Shown one piece after another: positions 8,914 to 63,569 of a DNA stretch of 64,000 nt (its first letter is position 1; each line of letters begins with the position of its first letter). The position numbers were made by a program, and so were the translations under genes. Source of the stretch: Modestobacter sp. VKM Ac-2984 (GTDB taxonomy: Bacteria > Actinomycetota > Actinomycetes > Mycobacteriales > Geodermatophilaceae); NCBI RefSeq assembly GCF_026967985.1, contig NZ_JAPVBJ010000010.1, positions 62,001 to 126,000 of the forward strand, in the 5' to 3' direction. The notes under the pieces were generated by a model that made no database searches, had not been told where the DNA came from, and saw nothing but the letters and a program-made list of their open reading frames with translations.

Positions 8914-9945
8914 ATGCCCAACCGTCCCCTCCCCAGGCGCCCGCTCCTCGCGGCCTCCGCCCTCCTCCCCCTCCTGCTCGCCACCGCCTGCGGCGGCGGC
9001 GACGACGCCGGCGGCGGGGACGCCGGTGGCGGCGGCGAGGTGGAGCTGACGCTCGCGCACAGCTACACCGAGCAGCAGCCGCAGCACCGGTGCGGTGCCC
9101 AGGTCATCGCTGACGAGCTCGAGGCCGCCGATGTCGGCGTGACCGTGGAGATCTTCCCGAGCAGCCAGCTCGGCGGCGACGCCGACCGCATCCAGTCGGT
9201 GATCTCCGGTGACATCGACCTCGACATCCAGGGCGCCTCGGCGCTCGGGGCGGTCTACGAGCCGATGAGCGTCGTCGACGCGGCGTACGCCTTCGACGAC
9301 GGCGAGCACCTCGCCCGGTTCTTCGGCAGTGAGGCGTCCGACGAGCTGACCCAGGGGTTCGCCGACTCCACCGGCGCCAGCGTGCTCGGCGCCTGGTCCG
9401 CCGGCGCCCGGCACTTCACCGCCGGCCAGGCGATCCGCGAACCCGCCGACCTGGAAGGCCTGCGGATGCGGTTCCCCAACTCGCCGCAGTACCTGATGAA
9501 CGCCCGCGCCCTGGGCGCGGACCCGACCGAGGTGGCCTACGAGGAGCTGTACCTGGCTCTGCAGCAGGGCATCGTCGACGGTCAGGAGAACCCGATCGTC
9601 AACATCGACGCCCAGAACCTCGGCGAGGTGCAGGACTACCTGAGCCTGTCCGCCCACCAGGAGAACTCCAACCTGGTCATCGCCGGCCCGGGGGTCGAGG
9701 AGTTGTCCGACGAGCAGCGGGAGGCGCTCGACGCCGCGGTCGCGGCAGCCGTCGAGCAGGTGCCCGAGTGCGTCGCGGAGGACGAGGAGCAGGTCCTCGA
9801 GGAGTGGACCTCCGGCGGTGAGTTCGAGGTCGTGGAGGACGTGGACGTCGACGCCTTCCGCACCCAGGCCGAGGAGTACCTGCGGGCCAACCTGAGCGAG
9901 GAGCAGCTCAGCGTCTACGAGGCCATCCGCGACTCGGCCGAGTGA
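8914..9945 (+). CDS. TRAP transporter solute-binding lipoprotein (DctP-like)
   Basis: A 343-residue protein with a lipoprotein signal (ALLPLLLATACGGG; lipid-modified Cys near residue 27), a glycine/acidic linker, and the DctP fold: LTLAHSYTEQQPQH, FPSSQLGGDADRIQSV, GLRMRFPNSPQYLMNARALGA (split here by family positions), the conserved ELYLALQQGIVDGQENP, and a long acidic C-terminal helix region. It captures the ligand outside the membrane and hands it to DctQM. GAAGGGAAAG lies just before the ATG. It overlaps the next gene by four bases. Confidence 0.88.
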   Translation: MPNRPLPRRPLLAASALLPLLLATACGGGDDAGGGDAGGGGEVELTLAHSYTEQQPQHRCGAQVIADELEAADVGVTVEIFPSSQLGGDADRIQSVISGDIDLDIQGASALGAVYEPMSVVDAAYAFDDGEHLARFFGSEASDELTQGFADSTGASVLGAWSAGARHFTAGQAIREPADLEGLRMRFPNSPQYLMNARALGADPTEVAYEELYLALQQGIVDGQENPIVNIDAQNLGEVQDYLSLSAHQENSNLVIAGPGVEELSDEQREALDAAVAAAVEQVPECVAEDEEQVLEEWTSGGEFEVVEDVDVDAFRTQAEEYLRANLSEEQLSVYEAIRDSAE

Positions 9946-10979
9946 CCGACCCTCTCCGCACCGACCCCCGGGGCGACTCCGCACAGGAGCGCCCCGGGGC
10001 GGTGGTGCAGACCTTCCGGGGCCCGGTGCACCCTGACCAGCTCGGGTCGACCCTGGTGCACGAGCACCTCTTCGTCAGCAGCCCGGAACTCGACCTCAAC
10101 CACCCGCACCCGGAGTGGGAGCCGGCCACCGCCGTCGACCGGGCCGTCACCGCCCTGACCCGGCTGCGCGACCTCGGCGTCCGCACGGTGGTCGACCTGA
10201 CCGTGCTGGGCCTCGGCCGGGACGTCGCCCGGCTGGTGCCCGTGGCCGACCGCGCCCCGGTGCACCTGATCGCCTCGACCGGCTACTACACCGCCAACGT
10301 GCTGCCGCCCTTCTTCCGCACCCACGGGCCGGGGCTGCTCGTCGCCGGCCCCGACCCGCTGATCGAGTTCTTCCTGCACGACATCGAGGAGGGCATCGCC
10401 GGCACCGGCGTCCGGGCCGGGATGCTCAAGGTCGTCACCGACGAGGAGGGCATCACCGAGGACGTCGCCCGGGTGATGACCGCGGCCGCAGTGGCCCACC
10501 AGCAGACCGGCGTCCCGATCACCACCCACAGCCGGCCCGCCCTGCGCAACGGACTCGACCAGCAGGCGTTCCTGCGGAAGCGCGGCGTGCCGCTCGACCG
10601 TGTGGTCATCGGCCACTCCGGGGACACCGAGGACCTCACCTACCTCCGGGTGCTGATGGACGCCGGCTCGACCATCGGCATGGACCGGTTCGGCATGGAG
10701 CACGTGCTGCCCGATGTGCGCCGGGTCGCCACCGTGCTGGCGCTGCTGCGGCTCGGGTACGCCGACCGGATGGTGCTCTCGCACGACGCGGCCTGCTTCA
10801 GTCGGGTCACGCCACCGTCGTGGCGCGCCGTCCACGCCCCGCACTGGCGGTTCGAGAACATCCCGACCCGGATCGTCCCGATGCTGCTCGCCGGCGGGGC
10901 CACCGAGGACGACGTCCACCAGATGACGGTGGTCAACCCGGCTCGACTGCTCACACCGGACCACGAGAGGACGCCGTGA
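9942..10979 (+). CDS. Phosphotriesterase-family metal-dependent hydrolase
   Basis: A 345-residue amidohydrolase-superfamily protein of the phosphotriesterase (PTE) group. All metal ligands are visible: His40 and His42 in HEHLF, Lys163 in GMLKVVTD (the carboxylated lysine), His196 in TTHSRPA, His225 in IGHSGDTED and Asp282 in SHDAACF. PTE-family members hydrolyse lactones or esters far more often than phosphotriesters. Sandwiched between the TRAP binding protein and dehydroquinase, it may open a lactone or ester form of the imported acid; that is inference. GTG start in a GTGA overlap. Confidence 0.85.
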
Positions 10980-24218: not shown

Positions 24219-25277
24219 TCAGGAGGGCAGCTCGGTGAGCTCGGGCTTCTCCTCGAGCAGCTCCTCGAGCAGCGACAGGTCGAAGAGGTCGGCGGCCTCG
24301 AGGTCGATGCCGGCCGCCTCGAGCGTGGTCATGTTCTGCTCGATCAGCTCGTCGGAGATGGTGAACAGGCCGTTCGCCTCGACGTCGGGTGTGACGATCA
24401 GGCCGGCCTGCACCTCCGACTGCTCGAGCTCCTTCTGCATGTTCAGCTGCAGATCGCTGCCGTACTCCTCGACCGCCATCCGCGCGCCCTCCGCGGGGTC
24501 GGCGAGCGCGTCCTGCCAGCCGAGGATCTCCGCCTCGAGGAACGCCTTCACCTTCTCCGGCTCCTCCGCGATCATGCGGTCGGTGGTGATGACCGACTCG
24601 GCGACGAAGGGCAGCCCGTTGTCGGCGAAGGGCAGGTTGGTCACCTCGATGCCCAGCGACTGGACGGTGATGGACTCGTTGGTCAGGTAGGCCAGGAAGC
24701 CGTCGACCTCGCCGTCGACGAGCGGTGCCGGGTCGTACTCGACGGGGACCTTCTGCACGTCGGCCGGGTCGATGCCGTTCACCTCGAGCAGTGCGTCGAA
24801 GAGCGTCTCGTTGCCGCCGGCCTGCACGCCGATCGTCTTGCCGATCAGGTCCTGGGGCGTCGCGATGTTCCCACCGTCCGCGCGCGAGAGGATCGTGAAC
24901 GGGTTCTTCTGGAACTTGGTGCCCACGATCTTGAGCGGCGCGTCCTCCTCGGCGATGACCTGGGCGGTGGAGACGGCGTTGCTGAGGCCGAAGTCGGCGT
25001 CCTCGGTGGCGACGAGCGTCTCGATGGCGCCCGGACCGGGGTCCATCGTCACCGAGCCGAACCCGGCGTCCTGGTAGTAGCCCTGGCTGTCGGCGAAGAA
25101 CTCACCGGCGAACTCGGCGTTCTTGATCCACGACAACTGGAGCGTGAGGTCGCCGAGGTCACCCTCCCCGCCGCTGGCGGCTGCGGACTCGCCGTCGTCG
25201 GACCCGCATGCGGTGAGAACGAGGGCGGCGGCGGTCAGCAGTGCTCCGGTGCGCACGGTGCGGTGGCGGAAGGTCAT
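24219..25277 (-). CDS. NMT1/SsuA-like ABC substrate-binding lipoprotein
   Basis: A 352-residue protein with a lipoprotein signal ([11 protein letters not shown]; Cys near residue 24) and an NMT1-type fold: [15 protein letters not shown], a GYYQDAGF segment, [36 protein letters not shown] and [11 protein letters not shown]. Related proteins bind pyrimidine precursors of thiamine, riboflavin or alkylsulfonates. The operon partners (adenosine-deaminase-like enzyme, 2-oxoglutarate oxygenase) point to a purine- or pyrimidine-like ligand. It is the first gene of the operon, with a 288-base gap upstream. The C-terminal 40 residues are strongly acidic. Confidence 0.85.
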
Positions 25278-25565
25278 GAGGTGCTCCGTATCTCAGCCAC
25301 ACCCTCGGCGGGGTGGGGTGCCGTCCCGGCATGGGGTCGGGCTGAAGCTAGGAGCGGGTCGTTTCGCCGTTCAGCCCCTGGTGTTTCGCGTCGGTTAACC
25401 CATTCGCCCAGCGGCGGATGCGCTGGTCGACCGGCGGCAGCGACCTGTCGATCGGACCACCCAGGTGAGCACGAGCGGCACTCCGGCCGTCGGCGACGGA
25501 GCGTCACCGGTTCGGCTCCCGCGGGAGGAGCCCCGACGAGGTGTGGGGCAGGGCAAGCTGACCCC

Positions 25566-27302
25566 GTGCAGCACATCGGGATCGACCTCGCCTGGGGGCT
25601 CAAGCAGCCCACCGGCCTCGCCGTGCTCGACGACGCCGGCCGGCTGGTGCACGTCTGCGCGGTGCGTACCGACGAGCAGATCGAGACCGCGCTGGCACCG
25701 TTCACCGTCGGCCCGTGCATCGTGGCGATCGACGCCCCGCTGGTGGTCACCAACGCCACCGGCAACCGGGCCGCCGAGCGGGCGCTGAACGCCGACTTCG
25801 CGAGGTTCCAGGCCGGGACGTACCCGACGAACACCGGGAAACCAGAGTTCACCGATGGTGACACCCGGGCCGGGCGGATCGGCCGGCGCCTGCGGCTGGA
25901 CCTCGATCCCCGCTCGGGCCGCGACCGCCGTGGGATCGAGGTCTACCCGCACGCGGCGACGGTGGCGCTGTTCCGGCTGGGCCGCACGCTGAAGTACAAC
26001 AACAAGCCGGGCCGGGTGCTCGAGCAGATGCGCGCGGAGCTGCTGCTGCTCATCGACCTGCTGGGCGCGGTGGTCGAGCTCGACCTCGGAGCACCGTTCG
26101 CCGGGCTGCGCCAGCAGGTGCAGGCCGCCACCCGCAAGAGCGAGCTGCGGGTGGCGGAGGACCAGGTCGACGCCGTGGTGTGCGCCTACGTGGGATGGAT
26201 CGCCGTCCGGCGCCCGGATGAGGTGACCACCTACGGCGACGCGGCTGGCGGCGCCATCGTGACCCCGACCCTGCCGCCGGACCTGCAGCCCGGCCCCTGG
26301 GTCGCCGCACCCGCGGCCGACCCGGTGCAGCAGGCTATCCAGGCGTACGCCGACGGCCGGCCCGAGACCCTGGTCGCCGGGGCGCAGGCGCTCGCACTCG
26401 TCACCGGGGTGCTCGACGACGCGGGGATCAACTACCTGTCGGTGACCGGGCGGACCAAGACCATCGCCTCGTTCGCGGAGAAGGCGGCCCGCACGGTCGA
26501 CGGCGTGCTCGCCTACCCGGATCCGGCGCGGGAGATCACCGACCAGATCGGCGTGCGGGTGATCACCTACGTGCAGAGCGACGTGGAGGCGGTCGCCGAG
26601 CTGCTGGCCGCGCAGGTGCGGGTGCTCGACGACCGCGACATGGGTCGGCGGACCGCGCAGCAGGGCCGGTTCGGCTACGCCAGCCGGCACCTGCTGATCG
26701 GCGTGGACCCGGGCCGGGTGGCCGAGCTGCCGGAGCTGGTCGGGCGCGTGGTCCAGGTGCAGGTGCGCACGGTGCTGCAGCACGCGTGGGCCGAGTTCGA
26801 GCACGACATCCGCTACAAGGGCACGGTGCCGGCCGAGCACGCCTCCGAGTTCGACCGCCGGTTCACCCTGGCCGCCGGGCTGCTGGAGCTGGCCGACCAG
26901 GAGTTCACCGCGATCCGCGAGCGCCTCCGGGCACCGGTTCCCGCCGACGAGGTCGACGACACCGACCCCGACGACCCCCGGATCGCGCCCCGCGAGCTGG
27001 CTGCGTTCCTGGCCGGGCAGTACGCCGACGCCGGCTGGTCGCGTCCGGACCACTACACCTGGATCTCCGGCCTGCTCCTGGAGCTGGGCGTGACCAGCCT
27101 GGTGGAGCTGGGCGAGGTGCTGCGCGGCGCCGACGACAGCGGCATCCCCGCCCGGATGGACTACCGCTATCCCCCGGGTGCCGTGCGCCGGCTGGACGAC
27201 ACGCTGTTGGCCGGCTTCGGGCAGCGGTACGTGGAGCTGCACGGCAATGCCGACCGGCGGGCCGCGCTGACCACCCGGCTGCAGCGGCTCACCGGCGGCT
27301 GA
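25566..27302 (+). CDS. DUF429 - RelA/SpoT (ppGpp synthetase) fusion protein
   Basis: A 578-residue two-domain protein. Residues 1-220 match DUF429, an RNase H-like-fold family (HIGIDLAWG, VAIDAPLVV, then AEDQVDAVVCAYVGW). Residues about 285-470 match the RelA/SpoT synthetase domain: GRTKTIASFAEKA, DQIGVRVITYV, GYASRHLLIGV and VQVQVRTVLQHAWAEFEHD followed by IRYKG. The second domain makes (p)ppGpp-type alarmones from GTP/GDP and ATP in relatives; no HD hydrolase domain is visible, so it would be synthesis-only. The GTG start at 25566 is chosen because DUF429 begins there. No toxin/antitoxin-type neighbour is evident. Confidence 0.85.
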   Translation: MQHIGIDLAWGLKQPTGLAVLDDAGRLVHVCAVRTDEQIETALAPFTVGPCIVAIDAPLVVTNATGNRAAERALNADFARFQAGTYPTNTGKPEFTDGDTRAGRIGRRLRLDLDPRSGRDRRGIEVYPHAATVALFRLGRTLKYNNKPGRVLEQMRAELLLLIDLLGAVVELDLGAPFAGLRQQVQAATRKSELRVAEDQVDAVVCAYVGWIAVRRPDEVTTYGDAAGGAIVTPTLPPDLQPGPWVAAPAADPVQQAIQAYADGRPETLVAGAQALALVTGVLDDAGINYLSVTGRTKTIASFAEKAARTVDGVLAYPDPAREITDQIGVRVITYVQSDVEAVAELLAAQVRVLDDRDMGRRTAQQGRFGYASRHLLIGVDPGRVAELPELVGRVVQVQVRTVLQHAWAEFEHDIRYKGTVPAEHASEFDRRFTLAAGLLELADQEFTAIRERLRAPVPADEVDDTDPDDPRIAPRELAAFLAGQYADAGWSRPDHYTWISGLLLELGVTSLVELGEVLRGADDSGIPARMDYRYPPGAVRRLDDTLLAGFGQRYVELHGNADRRAALTTRLQRLTGG

Positions 27303-28329: not shown

Positions 28330-29196
28330 ATGAGCGAGTGGACGGCGGCAGACCTGCCGGACTCGACCGGGCGCACGGTGCTGGTCACCGGCGCGGGCCG
28401 GGGCATCGGCTGGGTGACCGCGCGGGAGCTGGGCCGGGCCGGCGCCCGGGTGGTGCTGGGGGTCCGCGACCCGGACAGGGCCCGGGCCGCGGTCGCCGGG
28501 CTGGCCGGCGAGTTCGACGTCCGCCGGTTGGACGTGTCGGACCTGTCGTCGGTCCGGGAGTTCGCCGCGGCGTGGACCGGGCCGCTGGACGTGCTGGTGA
28601 ACAACGCCGGGGTCATGGACACCCCTGCCGCGCGGACGGCGGACGGCCTCGAGCGGCAGACCGCGACCAACTACACCGGCCCCTTCGTGCTGACGAACCT
28701 GCTGCTGCCGCACGTCACCGGTCGGGTGGTCAGCGTGACCAGCCAGCTGCACCGTCTGGGGAAGGTGGACGTCGCCGACCTGGACTGGAGGACGCGGACC
28801 TACCGACCGATGCAGGCCTACCGGGACTCCAAGCTCGCCCAGGTCCTCTTCTCCCTGGAGCTGCAGCGCCGCTTCACCGCGATCAGCAGCCCGGTCCGCT
28901 CGGTGCTGGCCCACCCGGGCATCGCCCACACCGGCCTGGTCGACCACTCCAGCCAGAAGCTCGTCTTGCGCCTGGGAGGCCCGCTGCTCAACGACGTCGA
29001 GCACGGCGCCCTGCCGACGCTGTTCGCCGCGACCCAGGACGTGCGGGGCAACGCCTACGTCGGGCCCGACGGCCTCGGCAGCGTCAAGGGCCACCCGACG
29101 GTGCGCCGCCAGGCGCGGAAGGGGCTGGACGAGGAGACCGCCCGCGCCCTGTGGGCGGCCACCGAGGCCCTGACCGGTGTCCGGGCCGAGTTCTAG
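28330..29196 (+). CDS. Short-chain dehydrogenase/reductase
   Basis: A 288-residue classical/retinol-dehydrogenase-like SDR with TGAGRGIG (cofactor loop), DVLVNNAGVMD, the SVTSQLHR active-site Ser region and a YRDSK active-site Tyr/Lys pair. Many actinobacterial genomes pair this SDR with an MmyB-type regulator. ATG start with AGGAGGAG just upstream. Ends 80 bases before the truncated oxidoreductase copy. Confidence 0.9.
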   Translation: MSEWTAADLPDSTGRTVLVTGAGRGIGWVTARELGRAGARVVLGVRDPDRARAAVAGLAGEFDVRRLDVSDLSSVREFAAAWTGPLDVLVNNAGVMDTPAARTADGLERQTATNYTGPFVLTNLLLPHVTGRVVSVTSQLHRLGKVDVADLDWRTRTYRPMQAYRDSKLAQVLFSLELQRRFTAISSPVRSVLAHPGIAHTGLVDHSSQKLVLRLGGPLLNDVEHGALPTLFAATQDVRGNAYVGPDGLGSVKGHPTVRRQARKGLDEETARALWAATEALTGVRAEF

Positions 29197-29277
29197 GTGT
29201 GCTGACCGGGCAGGTCGGTCGCAAGCACTGCCGACCTCGGCACTGCGGACCTCTGGGCCGCGCCTAGCCTCACCTGC

Positions 29278-29414
29278 ATGCGATCAGTGCAGATCACCCG
29301 TTTCGGCGGCCCCGAGGTCATGGACATCGTCGAACTGCCCGATCCCACCCCTGGAGACGGCGAGCAGCTCTTCGACATCTCCTCCTCCGGCGTCAACTTC
29401 GCCGACACCCACCA
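29278..29414. repeat. Left copy of a 137-base segment flanking the cassette
   Basis: The 137 bases from the ATG are collinear, with no gaps, with 33129-33265. I count 14 mismatches (about 90% identity); the first 24 bases around CATGCGATCAGTGCAG are identical. About 25 bases upstream of each ATG are also similar. Homology stops sharply at 29414 on the left copy. Confidence 0.9.
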
Positions 29415-29433
29415 CCCGGCGTCGGCCAACTAA
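29278..29433 (+). pseudogene. Truncated 5' end of a quinone oxidoreductase gene
   Basis: A 51-codon ORF (MRSVQITRFGGPEVMDIVEL onward) that matches the start of the intact oxidoreductase at 33129. After NFADTHH the homology ends and the frame closes at TAA (29431-29433). It has lost the catalytic and cofactor-binding parts, so it is a remnant rather than a working gene. It marks the left end of the inserted cassette and may be the old chromosomal copy, cut when the insert arrived with its own version of the gene start. Confidence 0.85.
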
Positions 29434-29562
29434 TCTGTCCGCAGAAGTTGGTCTGCGACGTCCTGCCGGCCAGGGGCTCGACGTGACGACCAGCCGCCTT
29501 CCTGCCAATCTGTCCCTTTGCTGGCATCCTCAAGGGCAGTCACGAATGGGGGGCAGACACTG

Positions 29563-30033
29563 GTGCGTCACGAGGATGACCCAGCGGAGTACGCCCGCCG
29601 TATTGAAGCAAAACTGTCCCCCGATCACATTCGCGCGACGCTTGCCTTCTCTGGCCTATACCAACTCACGCACGAGCAGATCAAGCGCACTGTGCTCGAT
29701 GACGTGAAGAGCTTCTTTGGCTACAGCCCATTGCGCGACGGTATGTGGCTCCTCGGCGAGTCCGGTAAACGGGACTACGATGCGTCAGTCCTGTCGCGAG
29801 CACCCAAGCGCCCCTTCCAAGCTTCCCTGCTCTGGCTCGAGGACATGGAAGCGATCACCACCGAGCAGAGGAAGAGGCTCGATGCGATATATGCGCATCG
29901 ACACGACCTCACGCATGAGCTCGTCAGGTACCTCGTGGACGTCGACACTGAACCGGACGTCGATCTGTTCCAGGAAGCGCTGGAGATCCTCCTGTCGATC
30001 CACCAATCTGGATTCAGGTGGAGAAGGACATAG
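29563..30033 (+). CDS. HEPN-like protein with RxxxxH motif (likely frameshifted at its end)
   Basis: A 156-residue, mostly helical protein with no family I can name with certainty. Near the C-terminus it carries AHRHDLTHEL: Arg113, four residues, His118, the RxxxxH pattern of HEPN ribonucleases, inside a helix followed by LVRYLVD. Preceding segments are SPDHIRATLAFSGLYQLTHEQI and a long variable middle. GTG at 29563 is preferred because GGGGGG lies about 10 bases upstream; TTG at 29518 is possible. The frame stops at 30033 inside what looks like a longer protein (see the next entry). First gene of the lower-GC cassette. Confidence 0.6.
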   Translation: MRHEDDPAEYARRIEAKLSPDHIRATLAFSGLYQLTHEQIKRTVLDDVKSFFGYSPLRDGMWLLGESGKRDYDASVLSRAPKRPFQASLLWLEDMEAITTEQRKRLDAIYAHRHDLTHELVRYLVDVDTEPDVDLFQEALEILLSIHQSGFRWRRT

Positions 30034-30146
30034 GCAGCTTCGACGAACACGGCGACGTCCCGATCGAGGACGTGGCCCCCCTTTCCATCGCCTTCCTGCA
30101 CACGTGCATCGACGCTTACGTCGCTGGGTTTCCCGACCACAGCTGA
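30018..30146 (+). CDS. 42-codon ORF, probable shifted C-terminus of the HEPN-like gene
   Basis: In the frame one base behind the HEPN-like gene, the sequence continues WIQVEKDIGSFDEHG and ends CIDAYVAGFPDHS with a proper stop at 30146. Joining the two by a single-base change near 30008 gives LLSIHQSWIQVEKDIG, a smooth helical run, so I read this as the original C-terminus separated by an indel (or sequencing error, or programmed shift). A GTG at 30018 could also make it a separate 42-residue protein. Confidence 0.45.
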   Translation: MEKDIGSFDEHGDVPIEDVAPLSIAFLHTCIDAYVAGFPDHS

Positions 30147-30189
30147 CGAGCAACTGGCGACGAGTCCTGCGCGTCGACAGACTGGATGC

Positions 30190-31413
30190 ATGAACACAGT
30201 GGGTGATTCGCGCCTCCGACAGCGGTTGGTCGGCCTGCGGGATGAGGTAGCCGAATCGGCGCCAGCGTTCACGCTCGCCGCCGACTCGGTCGCCGACGCC
30301 CTTCTCAACTACCTGGACGTTGTTTACGACGGCGAGCCCAGTCCCGCGGAAAGCTTTCCTACCATCTTCAGTCAAGGGTGCAACGACCTTCTTGATCTGT
30401 TGGCTGCGGCCATCGCCGGTCATGGCCGTCCAGCGATGCGGGCCGCGCGCGCGGTGTTCGAGTCGGCGATCGCCTTCCTCGACGTCACCACGGACGGCAG
30501 CGCGGACAAGCGATACATGGACCATCTGTGGGTCACGGCCTATCTGGAGTCCGGCCTGTCACTCGGTGAAGACTTGCTAACGCCGGAAGAGCGGGCCGCT
30601 GAGGAGGATCGTCGCCGGTGCTACCGGGCAAGCGCCGAAGAGACGTACGCGGAGCTGGTGTCGGATGAGGGCTACGGCAGACGTTTCGTCAACGGGTGGG
30701 CCCGAGGCGACCTCGCAGGCCGGGCCCGCGCGCACGGTCACGAGCATCTGTACGCGCCGTACAAGGTGGCATCTGGCGTCATCCACGCCGGTGCCGGTGG
30801 CGGGTACGGCACCGAAAACCTGATCGGTGGCCGACAGATCGTTCGGACCGGACCAGCGTTGGCGATCTGCCCTCTGGCCGCGATCTATGGGCTCAGGAGT
30901 TTCCGCCTCATGGTTCCTGCCCGAGAGCAGGATGCTGGTCATCCGTTGACGATCCTGCTGGTCGAAGCTCTGGATGACTTGGAGGAGGCGTGGCCAGCCT
31001 ACCGCCGGGCCATGATGGATCTGGATGCACGCACGTGGCCTACCGATCCGCCCGAGCAAGGTCTGATTGCCGTGGCTCACGTATCGGTTGACGGATCCGT
31101 AGCCTGGTACGTCGCGAACCAGCGAAGCAAGCACCTTGCCCTCACGAGCGCCCCCGCCCGACTCCCAGTGGGCTTCGACCTCCTCGTACGAGCCACCAAA
31201 GAGGCCGACAGTCCTCTTGGAGCCTCCGCATTCTTCATGATCGATGGATTGTTAGCGACCGTGCCCGCTGAGCCGACTTGGACAGAGCTCGAAGAGCTGT
31301 CGCCAGGCGCGATCATGATGCGCGTCGAACTTCCTGGCGACCGCCCTGGAGAAGGGCCACCTAAGAGCAGGGCGGGGTCTCATGAGCATCTACGCGAAGA
31401 CGGCCATGACTGA
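30190..31413 (+). CDS. DUF5677-like protein of unknown function
   Basis: A 407-residue soluble protein. Residues about 60-260 resemble DUF5677 as I know it: a helix with RAARAVFESAIAFLDVT, a DKRYMDHLWVTAYLESG segment, and later LYAPYKVASGVIHAGAGG, where the spaced R..E and conserved H recall HEPN-related helical folds. The remaining C-terminal part (about 290-400) is a mixed alpha/beta region I do not recognise, and the extreme C-terminus is charged. ATG start 43 bases after the shifted HEPN tail, same strand, so the two were probably one transcript. Composition is that of the cassette. Confidence 0.6.
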   Translation: MNTVGDSRLRQRLVGLRDEVAESAPAFTLAADSVADALLNYLDVVYDGEPSPAESFPTIFSQGCNDLLDLLAAAIAGHGRPAMRAARAVFESAIAFLDVTTDGSADKRYMDHLWVTAYLESGLSLGEDLLTPEERAAEEDRRRCYRASAEETYAELVSDEGYGRRFVNGWARGDLAGRARAHGHEHLYAPYKVASGVIHAGAGGGYGTENLIGGRQIVRTGPALAICPLAAIYGLRSFRLMVPAREQDAGHPLTILLVEALDDLEEAWPAYRRAMMDLDARTWPTDPPEQGLIAVAHVSVDGSVAWYVANQRSKHLALTSAPARLPVGFDLLVRATKEADSPLGASAFFMIDGLLATVPAEPTWTELEELSPGAIMMRVELPGDRPGEGPPKSRAGSHEHLREDGHD

Positions 31414-31501
31414 ACTCGTGCTGGGCGGCTTGATCGACTCTCTGATCGACACTTCCCTCGGAGCCCTACGTCCGACCAGCGAGGAGTGTCGCAGGGCCTG
31501 A
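31382..31501 (+). CDS. Possible 39-residue small protein
   Basis: ATG at 31382 opens a 40-codon frame overlapping the end of the DUF5677-like gene by 32 bases. The product would begin MSIYAKTAMTELVLGGLIDS and be mildly amphipathic. There is no clear ribosome-binding site and no known relative; it may be a leftover. It meets the convergent small gene head-to-tail 3 bases later. Confidence 0.25.
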   Translation: MSIYAKTAMTELVLGGLIDSLIDTSLGALRPTSEECRRA

Positions 31502-31504
31502 GGA

Positions 31505-31867
31505 CTATTCGTTGGCCGGTGACGGCTGTGGCAGCTCCCAGACCCGCTGGAAGTCCTCGGCGACGAGCGGCCAGATCCGCTGACGCCCCGTCTCGATCGA
31601 GTCGAGTTCGTCGGCCAGGGCACCGAGGACGACAAAGTCGTGCGGAATCACCCTGCCGGCCCGGTCTCGCCGGCCTCCCGGGTCCGGAAAGCGCAGCGCC
31701 ACCATCTCGGGCTGCGCCTCGGTCGCAGTCACACGACGGCATGCCTCCGGCGAGTCTTCAAGACCGGAGAAGGCGGCGTCGTAAAGCACCAGCGGATCCC
31801 CGGAGGCGTCATTCCGGAGGAACCGAAAACCCCACGCACGGCCGCGCGTGGCCCAGATCAGGCTCAA
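31505..31867 (-). CDS. Small hypothetical protein, partner of the cassette GTPase
   Basis: A 120-residue protein of no family known to me. It begins LIWATRGRAWGFRFLR and has LVLYDAAFSGLE, then VVLGALADELDSIETGRQRIWPLVAEDFQRVWELP: an N-terminal beta region followed by helices. Its start is 4 bases inside the end of the GTPase gene (ATGA), so the two are co-translated and probably interact. Small adaptors of this kind are common beside TRAFAC GTPases in conflict systems; that role is inferred. Confidence 0.6.
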   Translation of the reverse strand: MSLIWATRGRAWGFRFLRNDASGDPLVLYDAAFSGLEDSPEACRRVTATEAQPEMVALRFPDPGGRRDRAGRVIPHDFVVLGALADELDSIETGRQRIWPLVAEDFQRVWELPQPSPANE

Positions 31868-33012
31868 CGGAGACTCCTGAGCAGGATCCGCTCCTTTTCG
31901 CCCCGGTCGAGGTCCATCCCGAAGCGGGTCAGCGTGGCTCGCAGGTGGTCCTGCTTGGCCAGCGCCTCTGAGTTGACCTCCTTGAGTTTGTCCCCAGTCA
32001 ACCCGGCCGCTTCGGCCAAGCTGGGTCCGACGATGTTCAGCACGAGCCCCACGACCCCGAGGAACTTGCTCTTGGTCCCGACCAACGCAGCAGCCAGGGG
32101 GCCAGCGCCGCGCAGCAGCATCTCGACCACCTTCCCCTGAAGCTCCTTGGTCTGGGCCCAGTGAATGTGGCGCTCGAAGGGCAGCATGGCGGCCAGGGGC
32201 AGGACCATGTCGACACCGATCCGCTCGCTGACCTCGATCCTTTCTGCGCCGAACTTCGCTGACGAGAGCAGCACGAAGTCCTCGCCGACGGACAGCGCGT
32301 CCTTGGCCTCCACCAGTCCGGCGAGCTCCTGGCGCAGTGCATCAAGGTCATCGGTTGCCTTCTCGATGACGAGATCTCTGAACGCGAACACGTCTAGGTC
32401 TGGCAACAGATCGGATTTCGACAGCCCCAGCACCCAGATACGCGGGAACTCTATGAGCGGCTTCCCGTCCTCGAGCAGGTCGTCCCTGAGGGACAGCAAC
32501 CCGTTGAGGAAGTTGGCGAACAGCGACTTCAGGTATCGCTCCTCCTGCCCGGCGTTCTCCACCAACCGCTGAGCGTCCACCAGCAAGAGTGCGACATCCG
32601 AGCCCAACAGGGACTTGAAAGTGTCGACTCGGCGCTGTGCCTCCTCGGGCCCGCTCACGTCTTGCTCGAACCACTCCCCCGGGTAGTCGTGCCAGACAAG
32701 GCGCAGGGCGTCGAACGGCTTGTCCTTCATCGCCTTAGTGCCGGACCCGTCCTTCAGCTTGATCGAGAAGGAGTAGGACGTCCCGGTGAAGCGGTTGGGA
32801 GCGGGCAACTGCGCTGAGTTTTTCATGCCGAGGTAGTTCCGGTGCAGCCGAGCGCCTTGGCCGATGTCGTCGGCCACGACGTGGAAGAGACTCTGCTTCC
32901 GGTACTGGGGCTCTTGGGTCGCTCCGTAGAACGAGGAGATCAGGACCGTCTTGCCGCTGCCGCCCTCACCGAACACCGCAATGTGCTGCTCCAGCGCTCT
33001 GCTCACGTCCAT
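31864..33012 (-). CDS. TRAFAC-type P-loop GTPase
   Basis: A 382-residue GTPase. G1 is GEGGSGKT (residues 15-22), G3 is HDYPGEW with Asp109 and Gly112, and G4 is SKSD (198-201); a SSAKFG segment fits G5. This DYPGEW form is typical of the TRAFAC-clade GTPases found in bacterial conflict loci (such as the double-GTPase group), rather than translation factors or Era. A hydrophobic stretch at about 305-342 (LAAALVG, FLGVVGLVLNIVG) could touch the membrane. First gene of a two-gene operon facing the HEPN/DUF5677 genes. ATG start at 33012. Confidence 0.8.
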   Translation of the reverse strand: MDVSRALEQHIAVFGEGGSGKTVLISSFYGATQEPQYRKQSLFHVVADDIGQGARLHRNYLGMKNSAQLPAPNRFTGTSYSFSIKLKDGSGTKAMKDKPFDALRLVWHDYPGEWFEQDVSGPEEAQRRVDTFKSLLGSDVALLLVDAQRLVENAGQEERYLKSLFANFLNGLLSLRDDLLEDGKPLIEFPRIWVLGLSKSDLLPDLDVFAFRDLVIEKATDDLDALRQELAGLVEAKDALSVGEDFVLLSSAKFGAERIEVSERIGVDMVLPLAAMLPFERHIHWAQTKELQGKVVEMLLRGAGPLAAALVGTKSKFLGVVGLVLNIVGPSLAEAAGLTGDKLKEVNSEALAKQDHLRATLTRFGMDLDRGEKERILLRSLR

Positions 33013-33018
33013 GCGCGG

Positions 33019-33046
33019 AGCGTAGACACCATCGTCGTCGGGTCAC
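33019..33046 (-). promoter_or_regulatory. Candidate promoter of the GTPase operon (leaderless)
   Basis: On the minus strand GTGACC (33046-33041) and TACGCT (33024-33019) are separated by 16 bases and match weak -35 and good -10 boxes. The -10 box ends 6 bases before the GTPase ATG, so the transcript would be nearly leaderless, a common actinobacterial arrangement. Confidence 0.35.
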
Positions 33047-33128
33047 CGTCCACAGGCCCGCCGCATGTCCCAAGCAGGCGCCCCTCCCATGCCACCACCC
33101 GCATAGCCGCCTCTCTAACCTCCCTTTC

Positions 33129-33265
33129 ATGCGATCAGTGCAGATCACCCGCTTCGGCGGCCCCGACGTCATGGACATCGTCGACCTGCCCGACCCCACC
33201 CCTGGGGACGGCGAGCAGCTGTTCAACATCAGCTCGGCGGGGGTGAACTTCGCCGACACCCACCA
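33129..33265. repeat. Right copy of the 137-base segment flanking the cassette
   Basis: Gap-free match to 29278-29414 with 14 mismatches, mostly at third codon positions. This copy forms the start of the intact oxidoreductase gene. The divergence excludes a recent duplication at this site and fits a segment brought from a related strain or species. Confidence 0.9.
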
Positions 33266-34100
33266 GACCGAGGACAGCTACCTCGCCAAGCAGGAGCTGC
33301 CGCTGATCCCGGGGGCCGAGTTCGTCGGCACCCCGGCCGGTGGCGGCCAGCGCGTGGTGGGCTTGCTGCCCGGCGGCGGCTACGCGCAGCAGGTCGCCGC
33401 GCACCCGCGGCTGACCTGGCCGGTGCCGGACGGGGTGACCGACGAGCAGGCGCTGGCCGTCGTCCTGCAGGGCGCCACCGCCTGGCACCTGCTGCGCACC
33501 TCCGCGCACCTGGCCGAGGGCGAGTCCGTCGTCGTCATCGCCGGCGCCGGCGGGGTCGGCACCCTGGCGATCCAGCTGGCCAAGCGCTGGGGCGCCGGCC
33601 GGGTGATCGCCACCGCCTCCAGCCCGGAGAAGCGGGAGCTCGCCGCGTCCCTCGGCGCCGACGCCACCGTCGACCCGGCGCTGGCGAACGACGACCCGAA
33701 GGCCTTCACCGCCGCCCTCCGCGAGGCCAACGGCGGCAGACGAGTCGACATCGTGCTGGAGATGACCGGCGGCAACGTGTTCGACGGGTCGCTGTCGGCG
33801 CTGGCGCCCTTCGGCCGGCTGGTCGCCTACGGCATGGCCGGGCGCGAGGCCCCCGCCACGGTCGCCGTCCCCGCGCTGATGGGCACCAGCCGGGCGGTCA
33901 TCGGGTTCTGGCTGGCGCACTGCATGACCCGGCCGGAGATGATGGACGCCGCGATGACCGACCTGCTGGCGATGGTCGCCGACGGCAGCCTGAAGCCCGT
34001 CTCCGGCGGCCGCTACCCGCTGACCGCCGTCCGCGAGGCCCACCAGGACCTCCTCGCCCGCCGCACCACCGGCAAGCTCGTCCTCGACCCGAACCGCTGA
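33129..34100 (+). CDS. Quinone oxidoreductase-like zinc-free alcohol dehydrogenase (MDR)
   Basis: A 323-residue medium-chain dehydrogenase/reductase of the quinone-oxidoreductase (zeta-crystallin-like) type. Seen: SSAGVNFADTHQ, PGAEFVGTPAGG, AVVLQGATAWHLL, the NADPH loop IAGAGGVGTLAIQLAK, then DIVLEMTGGNVF and a C-terminal GRYPLTAVREAHQDLL. Zinc-binding residues of true alcohol dehydrogenases are absent. The first 45 codons are the right copy of the flanking repeat, so the gene start came with, or was restored by, the cassette. It ends next to a strong terminator. Confidence 0.9.
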   Translation: MRSVQITRFGGPDVMDIVDLPDPTPGDGEQLFNISSAGVNFADTHQTEDSYLAKQELPLIPGAEFVGTPAGGGQRVVGLLPGGGYAQQVAAHPRLTWPVPDGVTDEQALAVVLQGATAWHLLRTSAHLAEGESVVVIAGAGGVGTLAIQLAKRWGAGRVIATASSPEKRELAASLGADATVDPALANDDPKAFTAALREANGGRRVDIVLEMTGGNVFDGSLSALAPFGRLVAYGMAGREAPATVAVPALMGTSRAVIGFWLAHCMTRPEMMDAAMTDLLAMVADGSLKPVSGGRYPLTAVREAHQDLLARRTTGKLVLDPNR

Positions 34101-60817: not shown

Positions 60818-62130
60818 GCGTCGACCTCGACCGGCTGCTCCTCGAGGTCCGGCAGCGCGCCGAGGCGGGCCTCGATGGTGGACATCAGCCGGTCCTGGAG
60901 CTCGGGGACGCCGATGTGCTGCACGACGTCGGCGAAGAAGCCGCGCACCACGAGGCGACGGGCCGTCTCGGCGTCGATCCCCCGGGAGCACAGGTAGAAC
61001 AGCTGCTCGTCGTCGAACCGGCCGGTGGCGCTGGCGTGGCCGGCGCCGACGATCTCGCCGGTCTCGATCTCCAGGTTCGGCACCGAGTCGGCGCGGGCGC
61101 CGTCGGTGAGCACCAGGTTGCGGTTGAGCTCGTAGGTGTCGGTGCCGGTGGCGGCCGGACGGATCCGCACGTCACCGACCCAGACCGTGTGCGCCTTCTC
61201 GCCCTGCAGCGCGCCCTTGTAGACGACGTTGCTGCGGCAGTTCGGCGTGCCGTGGTCGACCCACAGCCGGTGCTCCTGGTGCTGGGTCTCGTCGGCGAAG
61301 TACACGCCGTAGAGGTCCACCGAGCCACCGGGACCGGCGTACTGCACGTTGCTGACCAGCCGGACCAGGTCGCCACCGAGGGTGACCACGACCTGCTTGA
61401 GGCTGGCGTCCCGGCCGACGACGGCGTCGAGCTGGCCGCCGTGCACCGTGCCCGGGGCCCAGTCCTGCACCGAGACGACGGTCAGCTGCGCACCGTCACC
61501 GAGCAGGAAGGCGACCCCACCGGAGTAGCGGGCCGAGCCGGAGTGGTCGAGGACGACGGTCGCCTGGGCGAACGCGCCGACCTCGACGACCAGCTGGCCC
61601 CAGACGACGTCCTCGCTGCCGGTGCCGGCCAGGCCCAGGGTGACCGGGCGGTCGAGCACGGCCTCCTTGGCGATCCGGAGCACGGCCGCGCCACCGCTGC
61701 GCTGACGGGTCAGCGCAGCGAGCCGGTCGACCGGCTCGGGCAGGCCCTTGAGCAGCGGGTCGCCGGCCTCGACCGAGGTCAGCTCGGCACCCTCGGGCAG
61801 ATCGCTCTGCCACGTCAGGGAGGCGTCGGACGGAGCGCCGTCCAGCAGCGCGCGGACGCGGCGCATCGGGGTGAAGCGCCACTCCTCCTCGCGGCCGGTC
61901 GGGGCGCCGAACGCCTCCGGGTCGGTGGAGGTGAACCGCTCGGCCGGCGAGCCGGTCGGGGCCGGCCCGCCGTGCGAGTGCGACCCGGGGGGCGTGTCGC
62001 CGGCGGTGCCGGTGCCGGCCGCCGGGGTGGTCGGCGGGCCGGCCTGGGCACCCACGCCGGGAGCGAAGAGCTCCCCGGCGAGGGTGGCCGAGTCGGTGGT
62101 CAGGGTGGTCTGGTCGTCAGTTGCCGACAT
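60814..62130 (-). CDS. sufD: Fe-S cluster scaffold protein SufD
   Basis: A 438-residue SufD. After a long Gly/Pro/Thr-rich head (to about residue 65) comes REEEWRFTPMRRV, a beta-helix core and the C-terminal domain with NLVLTDGARADSVPNLEIE, GAGHASATGRFDDEQLFYL, SRGIDAETARRLVVRGFF. It partners SufB and SufC in cluster assembly. ATG at 62130 overlaps the sufB stop by one base. Confidence 0.94.
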   Translation of the reverse strand: MSATDDQTTLTTDSATLAGELFAPGVGAQAGPPTTPAAGTGTAGDTPPGSHSHGGPAPTGSPAERFTSTDPEAFGAPTGREEEWRFTPMRRVRALLDGAPSDASLTWQSDLPEGAELTSVEAGDPLLKGLPEPVDRLAALTRQRSGGAAVLRIAKEAVLDRPVTLGLAGTGSEDVVWGQLVVEVGAFAQATVVLDHSGSARYSGGVAFLLGDGAQLTVVSVQDWAPGTVHGGQLDAVVGRDASLKQVVVTLGGDLVRLVSNVQYAGPGGSVDLYGVYFADETQHQEHRLWVDHGTPNCRSNVVYKGALQGEKAHTVWVGDVRIRPAATGTDTYELNRNLVLTDGARADSVPNLEIETGEIVGAGHASATGRFDDEQLFYLCSRGIDAETARRLVVRGFFADVVQHIGVPELQDRLMSTIEARLGALPDLEEQPVEVDA

Positions 62131-63569
62131 CAGCCGACGGCACCTTCCATCTGGAGCTCGATCAGGCGGTTGAGCTCGAGGGCGTACTCCATGGGCAGCT
62201 CCCGGGCGATGGGCTCGACGAAGCCGCGCACGACCATCGCCATCGCCTCGTCCTCGGAGAGCCCTCGGCTCATCAGGTAGAACAGCTGGTCGTCGCTGAC
62301 CCGCGAGACGGTCGCCTCGTGGCCCATCGACACGTCGTCCTCGCGGACGTCGACGTAGGGGTAGGTGTCCGAACGGCTGATCGTGTCGACCAGCAGCGCG
62401 TCGCACTTCACCGTCGAGCGGGAGCCGTAGGCGCCCTCGTCGACCTGGACCAGGCCGCGGTAGGAGGTACGGCCACCACCGCGGGCCACCGACTTCGACA
62501 CGATCGTCGAGGAGGTGTGCGGGGCGGCGTGCACCATCTTGGCGCCGGCGTCCTGGTGCTGGCCCTCGCCGGCGAAGGCGATGGACATGACCTCGCCCTT
62601 GGCGTGCTCACCGGTCATCCACACGGCCGGGTACTTCATCGTCACCTTGGAGCCGATGTTGCCGTCGACCCACTCCATGGTCGCGCCCTCGTGGGCCACG
62701 GCCCGCTTGGTGACCAGGTTGTAGACGTTGTTCGACCAGTTCTGGATGGTCGTGTACCGGCAGCGCGCGTTCTTCTTCACGATGATCTCGACGACCGCGG
62801 AGTGCAGCGAGTCGGTCTTGTAGATCGGCGCGGTGCAGCCCTCGACGTAGTGCACGTAGGCGCCCTCGTCGATGATCATGAGGGTGCGCTCGAACTGGCC
62901 CATGTTCTCGGTGTTGATCCGGAAGTAGGCCTGCAGCGGGATCTCCACGTGGACGCCCTTGGGCACGTAGATGAACGAGCCGCCCGACCACACCGCGGTG
63001 TTCAGCGCGGAGAACTTGTTGTCCCCGGCCGGGATGACCGACCCGAAGTACTCACGGAACAGCTCGGGCTGCTCGCGCAGCGCGGTGTCGGTGTCCAGGA
63101 ACAGGACGCCCTGCTCCTCGAGGTCCTCACGGATCTTGTGGTAGACGACCTCGGACTCGTACTGGGCCGCGACACCGGAGACCAGCCGCTGCTTCTCCGC
63201 CTCCGGGATGCCCAGCTTGTCGTAGGTGTTCTTGATGTCGTCGGGCAGGTCCTCCCACGAGGTGGCCTGCGCCTCGGTCGACCGCACGAAGTACTTGATG
63301 TTCTGGAAGTCGATGCCGGAGAGGTCCGAGCCCCAGTCGGGCATGGGCTTCTTGCCGAAGATCTTCAGCGCCTTCAGCCGGCGCTCGAGCATCCACTCGG
63401 GCTCGTTCTTGCGGCGCGAGATGTCGCGGACGACGTCCTCGTTGATGCCACGGGTGGCCGAGGCACCGGCGGCGTCGGTGTCGGACCAGCCGTACTTGTA
63501 ACGGCCGAGCGCGTCGATCGTCTCGTCCTGCGTCATCGGCGCGCTGGGCACCGGCTGCGTGGTGGTCAT
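62130..63569 (-). CDS. sufB: Fe-S cluster scaffold protein SufB
   Basis: A 479-residue SufB, full length. Features: [15 protein letters not shown] near the C-terminus, HYVEGCTAP with the conserved Cys, a long beta-helix core with [17 protein letters not shown], and [13 protein letters not shown]-like helix near residue 145. It is the main scaffold where the cluster forms. ATG in a 4-base overlap with the sufR stop, so the regulator and scaffold are one transcript. Confidence 0.95.

Follow-up and report, generated by a model that had tools for sequence, protein, structure and literature searches.

Staphylococcal cassette chromosome (SCC) and pseudo-SCC elements insert serially at the 3′ end of rlmH by means of Ccr serine recombinases, and some of these units carry no recombinase genes. 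The integrative and conjugative elements (ICEs) of the SXT/R391 group are found at the 5′ end of prfC; they are large and conjugative and carry their own integrase. The attC sites of integron cassettes are partly palindromic and crossover takes place in the sequence GTTRRRY. Cassette clusters without an integrase are known as CALINs (clusters of attC sites lacking integron-integrases), and in one survey the Actinobacteria show no complete integron, one In0 and a few CALINs (PMC9024848). Islands and prophages in dusA replace the 5′ end of their target and leave the old 5′ end as a remnant (PMC4482086). Here we analyze a stretch of 64,000 nucleotides (nt) from Modestobacter sp. VKM Ac-2984 (G000:C2:62001-126000), referred to as the window, where an insert likewise brings its own copy to replace the 5′ end of its target gene. 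The target, termed qor, encodes a PIG3-like quinone oxidoreductase. The start of qor appears from sequence comparison to be a serial insertion site in the Geodermatophilaceae, with truncated copies of the start lying upstream of one intact gene in the stretches examined.

The window displays a direct repeat of 151 nt (29264-29414 and 33115-33265) that is 88% identical and gap-free, with 133 of 151 positions matching as compared with 53 for the best among 200 shuffles of one copy. Counted from the ATG codons (29278 and 33129) the repeat is 137 nt with exactly 14 mismatches, as had been claimed for both ends of an insert in a previous reading of this DNA (the sequence-only reading). In the left copy the frame stays open for 51 codons, and the right copy opens an intact 323-codon gene, which agrees with the same reading. 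Lower GC content was also claimed between the copies and is found there. Windows of 1 kb at 29.0-33.0 kb have a GC of 0.615-0.656 (about 0.64 for the insert), and the rest of the window has 0.68-0.80 except for 0.65-0.68 near 62-63.5 kb and for windows overlapping the cassette edge. Third-position GC is 0.71-0.86 in the four genes of the insert and 0.91-0.98 in six neighboring genes. None of the four encoded proteins matches an integrase or transposase. The description of a lower-GC insert that supplies a new start to the gene and encodes no mobility functions itself is supported.

Relatives were sought in 23 genomes of the window genus (g1) and in 112 genomes of the family from 12 genera. In the 23 genus genomes a full-length qor orthologue is present in most, together with many matches limited to codons 1 to about 47, which share the strand of the full gene and lie upstream of it. 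A query of 51 amino acids (aa) from the start finds matches at E ≤ 1e-9 in 105 of the 112 family genomes, and 58 of 112 show at least two matches, with up to 10 in one genome; some of the additional matches come from different contigs, and at least one has the appearance of another full-length gene. The 58 genomes belong to 7 of the 12 genera (both numbers being hand counts). This family-wide repetition does not agree with the single insertion proposed in the sequence-only reading.

Stretches from 19 genus genomes, the window included, were compared by counting BLAST matches that reach a conserved core, with shorter decayed copies excluded. These gave 69 copies, consisting of 18 intact genes and 51 truncated copies. 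The intervals between copies represent 45 cassettes with a median length of 4.8 kb (range 0.36-25 kb), and the longest may hide decayed start copies. A wider set of 34 stretches, 24 from the genus and 10 from other genera, contains 100 start-covering copies, 26 intact and 74 truncated. On the right of qor a VWA gene is found in 23 of the 26 stretches holding the gene body and MoxR in 20 of 26. On the left, the genes differ among stretches. A local tandem duplication or an assembly error could likewise yield repeated gene starts, and many of those seen come from draft genomes. However, arrays are present in genomes of one or two contigs (G004, G008, G022), and the intervals differ in cargo, some of which recurs in other genomes and genera; this explanation is scarcely credible.

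The truncated copies leave the gene at the core, AACTTCGCCGACACCCACCA, i.e. directly after CACCA. Beyond the core there is a 24-nt arm, which is of type A (approximately CCGGCTGTCGnCCAACTGACCTGA) in 26 and of type B (approximately CCGCCTGTCGTGAGAGGTACATCA) in 12 of the 51 truncated copies by the motif rule applied, so that one or the other motif is present in 38 of these copies, selected for reaching the core. The intact genes continue past the core with the consensus GACCGAGGACAGCTACCTC. The core itself is found in the above GC-rich form and in an AT-rich synonymous form, AATTTTGCGGATACACACCA, side by side within single arrays; thus little beyond CACCA would be common to both exchange partners. 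A 21-nt core-arm pattern (one mismatch) is matched in 22 of the 112 family genomes, where the matches were not each checked, and recovers only 25 of the 74 known sites. All matches to a 20-nt core-arm pattern (up to one mismatch) in the genus are on array contigs. One pattern match, G018:C12:169063, is about 42 kb from the gene and shows no recognized start copy. The arm pattern, which finds 30 of the 74 sites, has no match in 394 genomes of the class, of which only two are family members, and absence elsewhere is not established by it. Of 44 cassettes with predicted genes, 30 have the gene next to the arm in the orientation opposite to qor. There is no significant GC difference between the newest (13) and older (30) cassettes (p = 0.12), with 2 of the 45 cassettes (from G015 and G020 pieces that lack qor) left out.

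The 26 intact genes form 325 pairs (pairs share genomes), and in 20 of these the identity is 93% or more over the 150 nt right of the core. The mean identity in these 20 pairs is 95.3% right of the core, 78.4% in the 45 nt to the left, 85.9% when the 137-nt start is taken as a whole and 50.6% in the DNA upstream. For the same last three regions, the values are 76.5%, 82.2% and 51.3% when truncated copies are compared between genus genomes (942 pairs), and 80.6%, 85.7% and 50.8% when they are compared within one genome (93 pairs). Thus the starts of close orthologues are about as different as any two copies, and the start appears to belong to the upstream DNA and not to the gene body. A cassette common to G001 and G003 is 96.4% identical overall. 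In 45-nt windows its identity is 93-96% after the left core and 98-100% before the right core, and outside the cassette it is 76-78% (last 90 nt of the left start) and 44%. In G018 and G030, which represent two genera, identity likewise starts at the core.

In the 74 truncated copies the sequence flanking the junction on its two sides is an inverted repeat. The best of 220 placements consists of two 13-nt arms with a 6-nt spacer (ACCA|CC) and a mean of 7.12 matches out of 13. Control arms situated 100-600 nt further right give 3.67 (standard deviation 0.17, maximum 4.26 of 200), and the intact genes give 3.27 out of 13 at the same placement. Arms of 13 nt and a 6-nt spacer are the layout of a tyrosine-recombinase core site. 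Judged from its letters, the site has tyrosine-recombinase geometry, with one good arm only in the chromosomal target.

One possibility is that the host proteins XerC and XerD mobilize the cassettes, as they do dif-using elements, at a dif-like half-site within qor. The dif site has a 6-nt spacer as well. Each of the 23 genus genomes has a single occurrence of the pattern CCGATAATNNACATTATGTC, which we take to be the actinobacterial dif, and the window-genome dif, TTCGCCGATAATCGACATTATGTCAAGT, scores 13.97 against the 69 sites as compared with 12.41 (standard deviation 0.43) for 60 shuffles, a resemblance that by eye is confined to the left arm. In addition, the array-bearing genome G008 (two contigs) has only two Phage_integrase genes, which are taken for XerC and XerD because such kinds are found in nearly every genome. 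However, the first four dif letters vary among four genomes read, the matching core letters are dictated by the codons F-A-D-T, of which synonymous variants occur, the right arm is by eye unlike dif, and the G008 array may be old. The likeness rests largely on letters fixed by codons. Xer is treated as a lead and is quite unlikely to be the explanation.

The DUF429-RelA/SpoT fusion gene, which lies left of the window cassette, is found beside or between cores in other genomes. Its nt identity between five g1 genomes and G032 (Blastococcus saxobsidens; Blastococcus is g2 and Geodermatophilus g4 in our sample) is 94.4-95.4%, and 93.8-95.2% with respect to G030. The same five genomes and G032 share 80.3-83.9% in qor and 75.8-79.6% in the VWA gene. 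As the DUF429-RelA gene is far more alike between genera than the neighboring genes, cassettes appear to cross genera. Within the genus, G000 and G017 share the SDR gene and the sequence as far as the displaced start (96%). In the sequence-only reading an empty site was expected to hold one continuous gene. The close relative G017 has the same upstream genes and a different 1.8-kb cassette at the window insertion point, which supports the insert described in that reading. Thus the window unit is either younger than the split of G000 and G017 or has replaced an older one.

In the mechanism that we propose, each cassette would carry an attachment site consisting of a promoter, qor codons 1-46, the short core (CACCA) and the 24-nt arm. 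Recombination with the chromosomal qor at the core would place the cargo upstream of the gene. The gene would take over the promoter and start of the cassette, and its former start would stay upstream as a 50-codon remnant. The new start would be targetable again, and cassettes would pile up with the youngest adjoining the gene. That a tyrosine recombinase acts in trans, that the cassette passes through a circular intermediate and that insertions came in this order are inferences. A serial cassette array at the qor start, with the window unit as the newest, is taken as the best explanation of the whole, with a probability of about 0.72. What can be read directly from the sequences is that the start travels with the upstream DNA, the family-wide repetition, core-to-core bounds (one cassette), cargo common to different genera and a palindromic site.

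Several observations weigh against this explanation. Of the 51 sites 13, that of the window included, fit neither arm motif by the rule applied. In one of the 20 close pairs, G004 and G009, the similarity of the starts (93%) is as high as that of the genes, and this pair does not resolve start replacement. Core-to-core identity at both ends is displayed by a single cassette pair, and neither a circular cassette form nor a precise empty site was seen. The array GTPase genes of G000, G004, G032 and G073 (Geodermatophilus poikilotrophus) are 75-80% mutually identical, less alike than qor; thus a recent spread of the GTPase module is not demonstrated. Among the Phage_integrase (PF00589) matches listed for the 23 genus genomes none is inside the arrays examined, and when all matches of 12 genomes are considered, none is within an array. 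Resolvase (PF00239), searched in the genus, has no match in G000 and none of the 26 listed genus matches is in an array. Matches to rve, the DDE "integrase core" as in insertion sequences, were found for 2 of 45 array proteins of G017, G018 and G019, and no recombinase is common to the integrase regions compared beyond two Xer-like genes. Finally, the displaced starts of G000 and G017 differ mid-way, with 65-91% identity in 23-nt windows, before the cassettes diverge.

Such mosaic starts would be expected if copies undergo gene conversion or if insertion is by homologous recombination; homologous exchange is therefore kept as a real contributor. RecA-type recombination alone would let DNA arriving from a different array recombine through a diverged start copy on the left and the gene body on the right, so that cassettes are gained and lost with no site-specific enzyme. 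It would find its homology in the 137-nt repeated starts, and is consistent with neither recombinase family being detected in the arrays searched. However, in 19 of the 20 pairs of close intact genes the starts differ, right up to the core, as much as unrelated copies do, the one common cassette is core-bounded on both sides, and unrelated cargos share the 24-nt arm past the core together with a palindrome that homologous recombination would not need. Homologous recombination is thus rather unlikely as the sole process, but may shuffle existing cassettes.

With no site-specific recombinase in the arrays searched, the enzyme for a serial cassette array would presumably act in trans. A home-made profile run on six-frame open reading frames of the 34 stretches gave no array match at E ≤ 10, with only 3 of 6 control loci detected. 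A comparison of 20 integrase-match regions showed a few pairs and triples of close homologues and no family common to the sampled array genomes. In three genomes (G004:C1:3676537, G036:C17:441978 and G046:C1:1867141) a tyrosine recombinase with a 310-codon frame is encoded on the qor strand, about 90-105 kb downstream of that gene, and the G004 and G036 versions are 86% identical. Searches of mobile-element records with the start peptide gave 293 plasmid and 6 phage matches, all with less than 60% identity; the rows inspected (15 of 293 and 6 of 6) look like qor-like genes and were rejected as carriers. Two exact matches in viral contigs fall in regions read as phage genes and were judged to be chance.

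The window cassette encodes a 171-aa protein, a DUF5677-related protein, a GTPase and a 120-aa partner. The GTPase narrowly passes the Pfam cut-off for DO-GTPase2 (28.4 vs 27 bits, partial coverage). It is of the TRAFAC type, as named in the sequence-only reading, and its small partner, also named there, recurs in relatives. The loci compared are the best 80 of 155 relatives in other genomes plus G004. The partner adjoins the GTPase in 80 of these 81 loci and the sole exception stops at a contig end. There is no third common gene; after these two, no cluster is represented in more than 8 of 80 loci, and the 8-locus cluster looks like a spurious frame. The partner shows invariant residues W5, R8, G9, W12, G13, P63, D68, G71, R72, I74 and W99 in 53 sequences. 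In Pfam neither the partner nor the 171-aa protein has a match, PDB searches gave nothing convincing for the partner or the GTPase, and PADLOC gave weak HerA/mad8 matches only for the GTPase. Plasmid records with matches number four for the GTPase (three Curtobacterium plasmids at 48.8% and one short match) and one each for the 171-aa (31%) and DUF5677-related (33%) proteins.

The GTPase is found in 9 of 112 family genomes and in 2 of 23 genus genomes, the latter count being in line with an insert. In 6 of the 9 (G000, G064, G004, G073, G032 and G031) the gene lies between two start copies. In G051 it is directly left of a start copy, in G106 it is about 6 kb left of the gene with no copy nearby, and in G103 it is on contig C196, with the listed one of two start copies on C22. 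Four genes of lower GC between two start copies could be taken for a single compact defense unit, inserted once, as the sequence-only reading suggested. However, the other two proteins are present in none of the 81 GTPase loci (tblastn E ≤ 1e-4, loci of 4-17 kb), a cassette of Geodermatophilus aquaeductus (G064) holds the GTPase and its partner alone, and start copies occur throughout the family. The four-gene unit is ruled out as a candidate on the first two counts and is very improbable overall. Of its supposed members, the HEPN-like protein has the RHDLTH motif, but no Pfam (E ≤ 1), PADLOC or convincing PDB match supports HEPN; the DUF5677-like protein is related to that family but falls below the Pfam cut-off (23.9 vs 27.1 bits).

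In a study of conflict systems, DO-GTPase2 is named as a family that pairs with GAP1 (PMC7159879). The window module is alike in having a TRAFAC-type GTPase related to DO-GTPase2 within a small set of genes. It differs in having one GTPase and a 120-aa partner, with GAP1 or a second GTPase not seen in the window cassette; the neighbors of the 80 GTPase loci were considered as clusters. Defense is plausible for the pair because of its family relation and the company it keeps, and a role in conflict or phage defense is tentatively considered the most likely one, at somewhat less than even odds.

Flanking repeats at GTPase loci outside the family give a mixed picture. In Humibacillus xanthopallidus (L111:3497-3595 / 9745-10068) the pair lies between a 33-codon lsr2-like start remnant and an intact copy (gene named by reading), and a protein alignable to tyrosine recombinases is found left of the remnant. 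The same type of insertion may exist at other genes, e.g. lsr2 in Humibacillus. In Microbacterium sp. T32 (L089:6340-6542 / 9601-9803) a 203-nt duplicated gene start, which reads as a response regulator, flanks the pair in reversed layout: here the left repeat belongs to the intact gene and the right one is decayed. In Arthrobacter hankyongi (L102:4563-5339 / 9572-10349) the pair is flanked by a 778-nt direct repeat of 95% identity that spans the start of a nuclease-like gene (by reading).

Other array cargo was scanned with PADLOC in 167 of the 208 mapped cassette proteins outside the window cassette; the Pfam and PADLOC scans leave out 41 proteins from G002 and G022 and 4 predicted proteins that extend over more than one of the pieces analyzed. 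RmrA/RmrT, IetA, AriA, MADS-3/8 and CapP/CapH were found, as well as the candidates PDC-S44 and PDC-S66, each defense type with one to three proteins. More generic matches are WYL, Csa3, CasR and Cas3c. Pfam, tallied for the first 25 families per set, shows many metabolic genes. By these annotations the cargo is mixed (metabolic, regulatory and defense-like), and no enrichment for defense is claimed.

Features of the window locus are collected in Table 1. A TAnnnT-like element is found seven bases upstream of the ATG in most starts, and the TAGCCT of the left copy is the majority reading at its spacing among the 100 start copies (56-72% per position); its closeness to the ATG suggests a leaderless transcript. 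The second low-GC stretch (62001-63500, 0.65-0.68) is situated close to the end of the window.

Table 1. Features at the qor locus, in window coordinates.
Feature	Position	Strand	Basis or remark
Left (displaced) qor promoter region and codons 1-46	29264..29414	+	repeat alignment
Remnant open reading frame of left copy	29278-29433	+	open frame
-10-like TAGCCT, left copy	29265-29270	+	7 nt before ATG
Core AACTTCGCCGACACCCACCA	29395..29414	+	junction after ...CACCA
Cassette arm, diverged form outside motif rule	29415..29438	+	inverted-repeat partner of core in other copies
Cassette, core-to-core, 3,851 nt (arm, cargo, promoter, replacement qor start)	29415..33265	+	
171-aa protein, RHDLTH, HEPN-like by motif only; outside conserved pair	29518..30033	+	
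407-aa DUF5677-related protein, below Pfam cut-off; outside conserved pair	30190..31413	+	
120-aa GTPase partner	31505..31867	-	recurrence in relatives
382-aa DO-GTPase2-related GTPase	31864..33012	-	Pfam; GEGGSGKT, DYPG and SKSD motifs read in sequence
Right (replacement) promoter region and codons 1-46, cassette-borne	33115..33265	+	repeat alignment
TAACCT, right copy	33116-33121	+	
Intact qor, probable insertion target	33129..34100	+	PIG3-like quinone oxidoreductase, below NCBIfam cut-off
SDR gene, directly left of displaced start	28330..29196	+	common to G017 (98.8% nt)
DUF429-RelA/SpoT fusion gene	25263..27302 (start probably ~25533)	+	array cargo in other genomes; PADLOC candidate PDC-S44

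The qor arrays resemble SCC elements in serial insertion at one gene and in units without recombinase genes. They differ in that the 5′ part of qor is used and in that the window genome has no Resolvase-family match. As with SXT/R391 ICEs, the insertion supplies the target gene with a new start; those elements differ in being large and conjugative with their own integrase. The likeness to integrons and CALINs lies in small cassettes that form arrays and have partly palindromic sites, and CALINs also have no integrase. The arrays searched likewise have no PF00589 match (for the genus, among the matches listed), as CALINs lack the integrase by definition. However, the junction is CACCA|CC and not GTTRRRY, and the site includes 137 nt of host-gene coding sequence and a promoter.

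The dusA islands (PMC4482086) are alike in having a 5′-end target in a protein-coding gene, a replacement and a remnant, and a short semiconserved attachment site. In that report they are defined by their own integrase, whereas none was found in the arrays searched here, and the word "tandem" is absent from its main text, whereas up to 10 start copies are present per genome here. The median interval is 4.8 kb and the target is a PIG3-like quinone oxidoreductase, not dusA. Replacement of a gene start is already known from the dusA islands. No description of serial cassettes of this type without an integrase was recognized in open-access full texts, judged by title and the beginning of the abstract, a body of literature that excludes most subscription journals and preprints.

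There is about an even chance that the arrays represent an undescribed actinobacterial cassette platform, in which a gene start serves as the port and a recombinase in trans builds ordered arrays that include defense genes. The testable question raised is which recombinase reads the qor-start site. If serial addition is true, the arrays would be a stockpile of foreign genes, some related to anti-phage defense. It would account for the movement of small cassettes without an integrase, and the repeated gene start would be a searchable landmark for mining defense and metabolic cargo. High-GC Actinobacteria, reported in the survey cited above to have no complete integron, would then have an integron-like collection of genes at a fixed place.

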